NCBI GenBank assembly: GCA_030616165.1
Contig: JAUWXV010000091.1
Location: 1 to 13,094 of the forward strand
Direction of reading: 5' to 3'
DNA from: a bacterium
GTDB lineage: Bacteria > SM23-31 > JAUVVT01
DNA: 13,094 nucleotides
Part shown: in pieces, positions 3,381 through 10,670 of the stretch
How the letters are laid out: each line of letters opens with the position of its first letter
How positions within the stretch are numbered: position 1 is the first letter of the stretch
The notes under the pieces: generated by a model
What the model was told of the DNA's origin: nothing
Database searches by the model: none
What the model saw: the letters and a program-made list of their open reading frames with translations, nothing else
Position numbers and translations under genes: made by a program

Positions 3381-4919
3381 TTATCTGTCTTCTTCTATGA
3401 CATTAAATCCGAGCAAAGCAGCTATATTCTTGATTCTTTGTCTGTAGTCGCCAAAGGTTCCGCTTTTATGTACACCGTAAATATCGGGATAAATATATTT
3501 TTGTATTTTCTTAGCATCAACTGATGCTACAAGTTTAGTTCTTCATATCATTTCCCAAAAATGGTCTTTATACTTAGAATCTACAGTAAGCATTGGAATA
3601 GTTGTGCCTGTGTGAACCAGAATCTCCTTTCTAAGAACATCGACCTGCCATATTGTAACAGTTTCATTTGGTGGATATATTATACAAGAAGCAGCACCAA
3701 CTCCAGGCTTTGAACGTGCCCTTACTCTCCTCTCCCTATGGTCTGTTATTATATAAGGTACTCTTCTATCATCTCCCCAGGGATTCCATGGACCCTCGCA
3801 GTGCTGAACAATAGATGTATTATTGAACGTATCAACCGAAAAATCGCCAAACATACTCGGTCTCCCGAAAGCATACCGGGCTAACATATCTGTAAGCACT
3901 ATATTTAAATGTGATTGACATTTGGCGATTATACCCTCTTTTTGAAATTGGGAAGTACCCAAAGCGGGCCAGACCCTATCCTCGGGCCTCGGATTTTTAA
4001 TAAGAGTCCTGATGTGAAACGCTATTGCGGTAGAGTCATACTTTTTCATTAATTTTTTCATAGCCAGATAACATTTAGCCGATCTTACCACTTCCGATTC
4101 GAGAGTGTTTATCATTTTCTCTGCATCTCTCATCCACATTTTTGCAATTTCATTTGCCTCTTTACTGTCATTGTACCAAAGATTCTTGATTTCTTCATCC
4201 TGCACCACTTCATTAGTTCCAATTTTTTTAACTTTTACACCGAATGCCTGATTTATTGCATCAAGGATAATCTCGTTATATCCGGGCGGAGGATATTTTA
4301 GTACATCTCCATACATGACGTTGACATACTGCGAATCTGTAACGGATAAAATGCTTGCTCCTTTCATAAGTTTGAGGGCTTTGATTAATTTTATTTTTGC
4401 AACTAAATCTTCAAACATAGCAGAAGTAACTTCTGGTGAACCGGAAAAATTCCATGGGTCTAAAGCGGCATCCAATACCTTATTTTCGTGGTAAATCGGG
4501 TAGGGCATATTCATAAAATCACCCACAATAGAGATGTTTATTGTATGTAATCCTGACCTCAGCACATCATAATCTCTCGGCCAGCCATAGATGATAACCC
4601 CGTCATAATCCAATTTTTTCAGGTCTCTCATTTCATTAAGAACTGATTGTAGTTTTGCATCTTTCGTCGTATCCCTTATAACAAAATCCACCCCATCACA
4701 ATCTTTTTTCAACCTGCGTATGATTTCTTCGTTTGTCATCGGAACAAGTGAAGTATCATCTCTGGAAGGGGCTATATTAAAAAAAACCGTATAAATTTTT
4801 GCATTATTGCTATCCTGCAGATATTCTCTTGTTCTTGCAAAGATTGGCATTCCTAATACAGATGCACCGACAGCGGAGGTTGATAATTTTAAAAAGCTGC
4901 GGCGACTAAAATCTGACAT
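3381..4919 (-). CDS. Tat-exported sugar-isomerase-like protein, probable selenoprotein (in-frame TGA)
   Basis: From the ATG at 4919 the protein runs 458 residues to TGA (3543-3545) and continues in the same frame for 53 codons to TAA (3381-3383), 512 residues in all with residue 459 at the TGA. The extension (RTKLVASVDAKK ... GVHKSGTFGDYRQ ... LLGFNVIEE) looks like the C-terminus of the L-fucose-isomerase-like family, which I recall as G-G-C-R-T... then G-H/W-H...YGD. The TGA thus falls on the expected cysteine. The N-terminus has a twin-arginine signal (SRRSFLK, residues 5-11, a hydrophobic stretch, then PIFA). Other family-like blocks are KCQSHL (333-338), GRPSMFGDF (352-360) and QHCEGPW (372-378). 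ATG 4919, preceded by GAGA, is preferred over the TTG at 4982 because it puts the Tat motif at the N-terminus. Substrate unknown. The alternative is a nonsense-disrupted gene. Confidence 0.62.
3510..3533 (-). promoter_or_regulatory. Candidate bacterial SECIS stem-loop after the in-frame TGA
   Basis: On the - strand, within the coding sequence, CTT (3533-3531) pairs with AAG (3512-3510). A two-base GT bulge follows on the 5' side, then AGCATC (3528-3523) pairs perfectly with GATGCT (3518-3513) around the loop AGTT. The loop starts 20 nt after the TGA. Known bacterial SECIS elements lie directly 3' of the UGA. They have a loop about 16-37 nt away, a G in the first two loop bases, and often a bulged U beneath the upper stem, as in E. 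coli fdhF. All of these are met. The hairpin is short and could arise by chance, and SelB binding cannot be judged from sequence alone. Confidence 0.5.
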
Positions 4920-8446: not shown

Positions 8447-10594
8447 TTACCATATGCAATTACATTTCATTTTTTTATAATTCATTTTTAGAGTATCCCA
8501 CATTTGTATAGTTTCTTTACACAAAGCTATGTTTTCAAATTTATAAGTTGACTGTATCTTCTGTATCAAAGTAGAATACATTTCATATCTAGTTTTAAAA
8601 TCGATTTTTTTACCCCAATTTGATGATTCTTTTAAATATTTAACCCATGTTTTATCAGCACAGCCGTTAATTGTACTTTGTAATCCTCGTAATGATCCTA
8701 AAGTAATTCTATCTGGCTTGAAATTTTTAAAAATAAGTTCGAGTAATTGCAGATAATATTTTTGCCAGTTTTTTACCGGAACCATTGGATCTATCCTGAT
8801 TCTCACTTCATATCCAGCATCAAAAACTTTCTTTGCTGCTTTGATTCTTTTTAATACATTTGGTGCTTTCTCCCATCTTCCAGCAACAGGTATAGCATTA
8901 AGACTAAAACTAATTATAACTTGATTGTGCGATTCCATTTCCAAGATATTCTTTATATTTGAAGACTTTGTCAAAAATAATACCTTATGACGATTTTGTG
9001 TTTCAAATAAAGGAATGATGAGTTTTGAAAATGGAGCTTTGTCGTTCTCATTCATTAGAGAGTCTGCGATTTCGCCGGTATTCAAAATTTCAGGTTCTTT
9101 AACTTCTTCTAAAAAACTTTTCACATGAATCTTAATCTTATCATAAGGTTTCACCACTGGAGAAATTCCTTCGGGTCTAAACCTAAAAGTTCCCTTAAGA
9201 TAGCACCAAGAACAATCAAAAGGACAACCATAAGCCCATTTAAGTTCGAGAAAATGCGGACAAACTACATCCGTCCTTTTTATTGGTAATGTTGTTTTAT
9301 CGAATCTTGTTATTATAGAACCATCATTTACTTTAGAAACTAATTTTTTCTTCTTTCCATCAAGGAGTGAATATTCTTTATAATGTATCTTTATTTTTGG
9401 TTTTATCCTTATAATTAAATCTTGCTCTGTAGTTAACATACTTGTTTGAACAGGATTGTTTTTTGGGAAAATTATTTCTGAATTTTTTATACTGCCTCTT
9501 GGACCTTTTCCTTCGATCTTGATTTTTTTATCTTTATTTTCTAATTCTTTTAAAGCTTCATCATAATGAGTCTCAACAAATTGTGTATCCATATAGGTTT
9601 CTTCCAAAATTTTTTTAAACGTCTTCCTTTCTCCCTCAAACCTATCTAAAAGATATTTTTTAAGTGATGCAATATCATCATCAAACAACATAATTTGTTT
9701 TCTATATTTAACTTCTTCTGGACCGAGATATGCAAAAGTTCCTGATGCTCCTTGTTTTTTCATTATATCCTTCATAATCTTCAATCCATCAAAATGATTT
9801 GTAGAATGTATGAGATAATACAAAGTCCTGCGTTTTTTAGACATACAAACACTAAAAGCCCAAGGATATTTAACTTTTGCTTCTTCACGTAAAGATTTAA
9901 TATACAAATCTTTTAATGATTGGTCTCTTTTTTTCCAATCAGGAATTCTATAAATTTGACGCCACTCATCAGTTGGATATAGTTCATTTAAAATCTTTTT
10001 TACACTCGGTACAGATAAAAAACGGTTAATGGCATCTGTCATAAACGTAAAAAATATTTCGGTTCGCGGTAAAGAGAGGATTTTCTTTATTATTTCAAAT
10101 GGAACTCCACTAATTCCAAATGGATCAATAAAAAAGAAAGAAGGTGCAATTCTTTGCCCAACCTTTTCCAATTCTTCATTTACTACATTACTAAATTCGT
10201 CATTTATTATATTAACTTGTAATTTATCTTGAAATTTAAGCTTTTTCTTTTCTCTACTTATAACACTTTTAAGATTCTTGTAGTTATCATTGTCTTTTTC
10301 GACACAAATACAAACAAATTCATCAAAATATGGTCTTCTTTTTTTCTCTTCAGCTTGCTCTAATAACCTATTTGCAACTTCTAACGCTATTATTGGAGAG
10401 CCTAAGGCCACAACCTTTCCTGTATTTTCATCAATATATTCTCCTCTCCCAGCAAAGCCGTCGATGAACAATATTCTTCTATGAAAAAATCCTAACTTAA
10501 CTATCCAAGGGTGTAAGTATTTCTTTAAAATTTCATGCTTTACTCTCGTGTGTTCCGAGTATTCCCATTTCTCTGGTGCGGAATCTTTAAGCAT
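8447..10594 (-). CDS. TcmP-like / spore-photoproduct-lyase-like radical SAM fusion protein
   Basis: A 715-residue two-part protein. The N-terminal half (about 1-370) resembles the three-Cys-motif partner protein TcmP, with KHEILKKYLHPW, FIDGFAGRGEY (43-53) and FFFIDPFGISGVPFEI (153-168), then a winged-helix-like tail near THYDEALKELE (342-352). The C-terminal half is a radical SAM domain of the spore photoproduct lyase type. It has WAYGCPFDCSWCYLKGTF with the C-x3-C-x2-C cluster at 457/461/464, then TGEIADS (506-512), FLTKSSN, FSLNA (563-567), RIDPMVPV (600-607), and a C-terminal LCKE...CNCIW. TcmP is normally a separate gene beside a three-Cys protein. Here both are one chain between recA and recX. 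The ATG at 10594 is preferred over the GTG four codons earlier because GGTGGGG lies six bases upstream. The catalysed reaction is unknown. The DPFG and GFAG motifs recall Rossmann-type methyltransferases, but that is inference. Confidence 0.8.
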   Translation of the reverse strand: MLKDSAPEKWEYSEHTRVKHEILKKYLHPWIVKLGFFHRRILFIDGFAGRGEYIDENTGKVVALGSPIIALEVANRLLEQAEEKKRRPYFDEFVCICVEKDNDNYKNLKSVISREKKKLKFQDKLQVNIINDEFSNVVNEELEKVGQRIAPSFFFIDPFGISGVPFEIIKKILSLPRTEIFFTFMTDAINRFLSVPSVKKILNELYPTDEWRQIYRIPDWKKRDQSLKDLYIKSLREEAKVKYPWAFSVCMSKKRRTLYYLIHSTNHFDGLKIMKDIMKKQGASGTFAYLGPEEVKYRKQIMLFDDDIASLKKYLLDRFEGERKTFKKILEETYMDTQFVETHYDEALKELENKDKKIKIEGKGPRGSIKNSEIIFPKNNPVQTSMLTTEQDLIIRIKPKIKIHYKEYSLLDGKKKKLVSKVNDGSIITRFDKTTLPIKRTDVVCPHFLELKWAYGCPFDCSWCYLKGTFRFRPEGISPVVKPYDKIKIHVKSFLEEVKEPEILNTGEIADSLMNENDKAPFSKLIIPLFETQNRHKVLFLTKSSNIKNILEMESHNQVIISFSLNAIPVAGRWEKAPNVLKRIKAAKKVFDAGYEVRIRIDPMVPVKNWQKYYLQLLELIFKNFKPDRITLGSLRGLQSTINGCADKTWVKYLKESSNWGKKIDFKTRYEMYSTLIQKIQSTYKFENIALCKETIQMWDTLKMNYKKMKCNCIW

Positions 10595-10670
10595 TTTTAT
10601 CCCCACCTTTATTTAGACATAGACTTTTAGCAAACCATAAGTTAACAGAACAAAATTTTAATGACCTTTA

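Follow-up and report, generated by a model that had tools for sequence, protein, structure and literature searches.

Our analysis of a 13,094-nucleotide stretch of DNA from an uncultured bacterium (hereafter the window) indicates that a gene on its minus strand very probably encodes a Tat-exported selenoprotein, in which UGA codon 459 is read as selenocysteine (Sec). The frame from the ATG at 4919 to the TAA at 3381-3383 holds 512 codons and a single TGA, after which 53 conserved codons, starting with RTKLVASVDAKK, lead to the TAA. The original prediction had placed this continuation in the same, unshifted frame past the TGA at 3543-3545, and its coordinates needed no correction. The features on which the argument relies are the following, in window positions:

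3381..4919, minus strand: predicted selenoprotein gene for an exported protein of the FucI/AraA fold, 512 codons plus TAA
4851..4919, minus strand: Tat signal peptide region (MSDFSRRSFLKLSTSAVGASVLG), 18.0 bits with TIGR01409 (cut-off 16.7)
3915..3917, minus strand: Gln335, at the place of the metal ligand Glu337 of FucI and Glu306 of AraA in the profile alignment
3843..3845, minus strand: Asp359, at the place of the metal ligand Asp361 of FucI in the profile alignment
3801..3803, minus strand: His373, invariant in the family alignment
3543..3545, minus strand: in-frame TGA, codon 459, probably read as Sec; TGA in the homologues L005 and L013, Cys in the others
3512..3529, minus strand: bSECIS-like hairpin UAGCAUC-AGUU-GAUGCUA, 13 nt from TGA to stem and 20 nt from TGA to apical loop
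3468..3470, minus strand: invariant His484, encoded past the TGA and aligned with the metal ligand His528 of FucI and His450 of AraA

For AraA we take the metal ligands to be numbered Glu306 and His450.

Two further genes carry a TGA at the same alignment column. One is a paralogue (L013, 61% identical) on a different contig, C2, of the genome that contains the window (G000; 3.74 Mb, 90% complete), and the other is a 70% identical homologue (L005) on contig C381 of G001, a genome from another genus of the same family; TGA-containing homologues, one of the proposed checks, are thus at hand. Each of the three genes has exactly one TGA, in that column, followed by RTK(L/I)(V/I)ASVDAKK. After the TGA, pN and pS were 0.09 and 0.32 between the window gene and the G001 gene and 0.17 and 0.62 between the window gene and its paralogue, and synonymous changes outnumbered non-synonymous ones on either side of the TGA in all pairs of the three genes. 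Judged by these rates, the codons past the TGA evolve under purifying selection. Neither sequencing error nor a recent nonsense mutation can account for this selection together with a TGA column shared by three genes. When we scanned contigs with the three-sequence alignment, only the sister genome and a Cys homologue from Pirellulales matched; both scan patterns were drawn from the N-terminal third, so more TGA members may be missed. In the phylum of G060 (392 genomes) and among 386 relatives no further TGA members appeared, and viral contigs, phages and plasmids yielded no relatives.

All 23 other homologues in the alignment, drawn from this genome, from its class and from further phyla, have Cys at the TGA column, mostly in the motifs CRTK, CRTQ or CRS. 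This universal Cys had been named beforehand as a test of the Sec reading; the GGCRT motif named with it is present in one relative (L021), and most others have CRT(K/Q). The nearest Cys homologue, L044 from Pirellulales, is 53-54% identical, has TGC at the column and is collinear with the window protein from the Tat signal through the C-terminus, while four distant Cys-bearing paralogues (L016, L021, L022 and L049) are encoded in the genome of the window itself. Besides the start, few family columns are invariant: P318, G329, H373, C374, C/U459 and H484. The three Sec members cluster together in the tree, nested within the Cys members (support 93/88, one change), a topology that fits a single Cys-to-Sec exchange.

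The genome of the window has a complete set of genes for Sec synthesis and insertion. On contig C100, selA, selB, selD and selC lie in a row within 4.6 kb, with a SelA match at E 2.6e-136, SelB and SelD over their cut-offs (352.9 and 362 bits) and a tRNA-Sec of 70.3 bits with anticodon TCA, so that the search for selA, selB, selC and selD that had been suggested found all four on a single contig. One SelA of the sister genome G001 shares 78% identity with that of G000, which indicates that the sel cluster belongs to this lineage. In G001, a MAG that is about 70% complete, SelA was the only sel product over cut-off. The genome of the Cys-bearing relative in G032 had neither SelA nor SelB over cut-off, and the Pirellulales genome had a SelA match and no SelB over cut-off.

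We also made two side observations on the sel genes. The selD of G000 (L031; contig C100, 115-1314, minus strand) has an in-frame TGA close to the N-terminus of its product, and the tRNA-Sec gene comes directly after selD; by its sequence, this SelD is itself Sec-coded. In addition, several of the six genomes covered from this small phylum (G001, G004 and G005) have two diverged SelA copies; in G001 these are fragments (L075 and L078) with 78% and 47% identity to the G000 SelA.

Downstream of the TGA we identified a bSECIS-like hairpin, which the original prediction had not mentioned; its Sec reading was borne out and is amended by this element. Published rules for bSECIS elements ask for a loop of 3-9 nt with a G in its first two places, a stem of 4-16 bp, a spacing of 16-37 nt and a minimum free energy of at most -7.5 (PMC13188914). 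The window hairpin, with its AGUU loop, 7 bp, 20 nt spacing and -8.6 kcal/mol, falls within all these limits, and 3 of 200 shuffled sequences were as stable. The paralogue has the hairpin UUGCAUC-AGUU-GAUGCAA (-8.2 kcal/mol; 0/200 shuffles as stable), and that of G001 has five perfect inner pairs and, at -7.4 kcal/mol (13/200 shuffles), narrowly misses the published limit of -7.5. A search with free hairpin position had a background of 7.6% and did not discriminate, and we used a fixed geometry and a comparison with selD instead. In the selD hairpin of G000, GCUUAAC-GGA-GUUAAGC, the offsets of the 5' arm and of the loop equal those in the window hairpin, and a Watson-Crick stem of at least 5 bp with a G-bearing loop at exactly this offset occurred at 0.16% of positions. 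No such hairpin follows the Cys codon of L044. The consecutive codons GCA TCA GTT GAT are identical in the three TGA genes and are the sole run of at least four in the alignment. Only one pair covaried, one sequence was unpaired at that place, and the signal did not go beyond shuffling; upon synonymous resampling, an equally good stem arose in 8-24% of draws, because the amino acids themselves favor the stem. The hairpin thus supports the Sec case but does not carry it. An Rfam search near the TGA returned chance matches only.

From these elements a route to the full-length protein can be proposed. With all components encoded in G000, SelD would provide selenophosphate and SelA would use it to make Sec; SelB with Sec-tRNA (anticodon UCA) would be brought to UGA 459 by the hairpin at 3512-3529, and the ribosome would read the codon as Sec and go on to a product with the L-fucose/L-arabinose isomerase fold. 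We infer that the full-length protein is made.

The protein is apparently exported by Tat, as had been claimed. The TIGR01409 score lies above its cut-off, while the Pfam TAT_signal model PF10518 gave 16.7 bits, below its cut-off of 22.7; RR..FLK is conserved in all three Sec members and L044 carries a Tat signal as well. Formate dehydrogenase-N, FdnG, is a Tat-exported selenoprotein too, with an unrelated fold and a molybdenum cofactor, and the likeness ends at the export route.

With Pfam and NCBIfam, the Tat signal was the only family assignment of the window protein. Its AlphaFold2 model (pLDDT 83) gave VIA Z scores of 25-27 to FucI, D-arabinose isomerase and AraA along the full mature protein (407-436 residues, rmsd 3.7-4.5), with a Z of 27 and 430-436 aligned residues for the D-arabinose/L-fucose isomerases; the next unrelated fold reached a Z of about 10 through a single-domain match. 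As modeled, the window protein has the L-fucose/L-arabinose isomerase fold. Its relatives have weak matches to SftI and AraA, and the closest curated sequence model for them, NF048012 (sulfoquinovose isomerase SftI), scores L014 at 65 bits and L016 at 45 bits, far under its cut-off of 700 bits; the window protein itself scores 15 bits and falls outside SftI. The original description as isomerase-like thus stands for the fold, which the remote SftI/AraA similarity of the relatives also favors, whereas plain sugar-isomerase activity is doubtful because the catalytic, metal-ligand Glu is Gln in this clade.

The Mn2+ of FucI is bound by Glu337, Asp361 and His528, of which the first two are considered to transfer the protons in the ene-diol mechanism (PMC6894278). 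The window protein shares the fold of FucI and AraA over its mature length and keeps the Asp and His ligands of this triad as Asp359 and His484, but it has Gln335 in place of the Glu, is only 10-14% identical to them, is predicted to be Tat-exported and has Sec459 where no Cys is aligned in E. coli FucI or AraA. Every Sec member has Gln at the Glu position, as do L044 and L059, which are exported and carry Cys, but not L006; this indicates that Gln arose before Sec. As an observation apart, the Sec members and L044 have a His two residues after the Gln (CQ[SA]H). We infer that Asp359 and His484 bind a divalent metal and that Gln335, perhaps together with His337, stands in for the usual Glu, in what is possibly a rebuilt metal site older than the Cys-to-Sec exchange. 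In a low-confidence alignment with FucI (hhalign probability 0.4%), Sec459 adjoins the loop with the substrate-contacting Trp of FucI, which offers a lead only for a position of Sec459 beside the sugar pocket.

The genomic surroundings loosely point to glycan breakdown. In the window the gene has as neighbors an aldose 1-epimerase-like protein, a SIS-domain protein, a PcrB-family protein and alaS; the G001 copy adjoins an alpha-L-rhamnosidase (GH78-type), and the paralogue adjoins a ceramidase-like protein and an acetyl-xylan-esterase/S9-like hydrolase. Elsewhere in the window (8447-10606, minus strand), between recA and a recX-like gene, lies an unusual fusion, a 719-aa protein with an N-terminal GMT-like wHTH (PF22560) and a C-terminal spore-photoproduct-lyase-like part (PF20903).

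The fold, the retained Asp and His ligands and the neighbors suggest metal-dependent sugar chemistry, and the lost Glu argues against plain FucI-type isomerization. Tentatively, Sec459 may lie in or beside the sugar pocket and, in the role that Cys has in the relatives, serve metal-dependent, extracytoplasmic chemistry on a sugar or sugar derivative as a nucleophile, a metal ligand or an acid/base of low pKa. That it is a direct metal ligand or catalytic acid/base within a rebuilt site of Gln335, His337, Asp359 and His484 is a more specific version that we consider unlikely. About as likely, the protein is a selenoprotein that does not convert sugars and that with the loss of the metal-ligand Glu became a sugar-binding or redox protein, for example with Sec459 paired with Cys334 or Cys374. 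The change of Glu to Gln, which the Sec members share with L044 and L059, and the conservation of Cys334 and Cys374 would agree with this, as would the view that most known Sec sites are redox-active (PMC13188914); however, Asp359, His373 and His484 are kept, the two Cys are conserved also in members that keep the Glu and so are not special to the clade, and the window protein has no CxxU or UxxC motif.

As for the decoding of codon 459, it is very improbable that the TGA is a true stop, ending a 458-residue protein with a decaying remainder left by a recent truncation or a pseudogene. This is where conventional reading with table 11 ends the protein, but the same TGA stands in three diverged genes with protein-level selection past it, both the last part of the fold and the invariant His484 are encoded beyond it, and the full sel set is present in G000. 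Still less probable is that a suppressor tRNA or an altered genetic code places Trp, Cys or Arg at codon 459. Any code in which TGA is a sense codon keeps the frame open, but TGA is the ordinary stop of three of the nine other genes in the window, so that there is no global reassignment, as the original prediction had it. Moreover, the genome encodes SelB and a tRNA-Sec with anticodon TCA, the other homologues all have Cys at the column, and a bSECIS-like hairpin follows the TGA.

Prokaryotic selenoproteins were listed as 87 families in 2022 (PMC9312934) and as 119 families in 2026 (PMC13188914), the latter including the families of Haft and Tolstoy 2025. The window protein resembles the listed families in its Sec/Cys exchange, in the bSECIS-like hairpin right after the UGA and in the sel genes of its genome, but none of the 119 families in the whole 2026 table is a sugar isomerase or has the FucI/AraA fold. 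A term search of the 2022 review yielded no sugar-isomerase selenoprotein, and neither did a literature text search for selenoprotein and fucose isomerase. We found no published listing of such a protein, though a groundwater MAG survey (Deng 2026) may hold unlisted candidates. In agreement with the earlier remark that such an exchange is not known from the described bacterial families, we file it as a new family of bacterial selenoproteins.

Our results expose a gene-calling error, in which the standard call cuts the protein off ahead of its invariant C-terminal His. They also add a selenoprotein family on the FucI/AraA fold, a class not known for redox chemistry, whose members are apparently Tat-exported. 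The window protein would allow a direct test of the role of selenium in a predicted metal-dependent sugar enzyme, for which L044 is a natural Cys-bearing counterpart for side-by-side kinetics. If the rebuilt-site reading is true, it would be a selenium-dependent, non-redox, metal-dependent sugar enzyme that works outside the cytoplasm.
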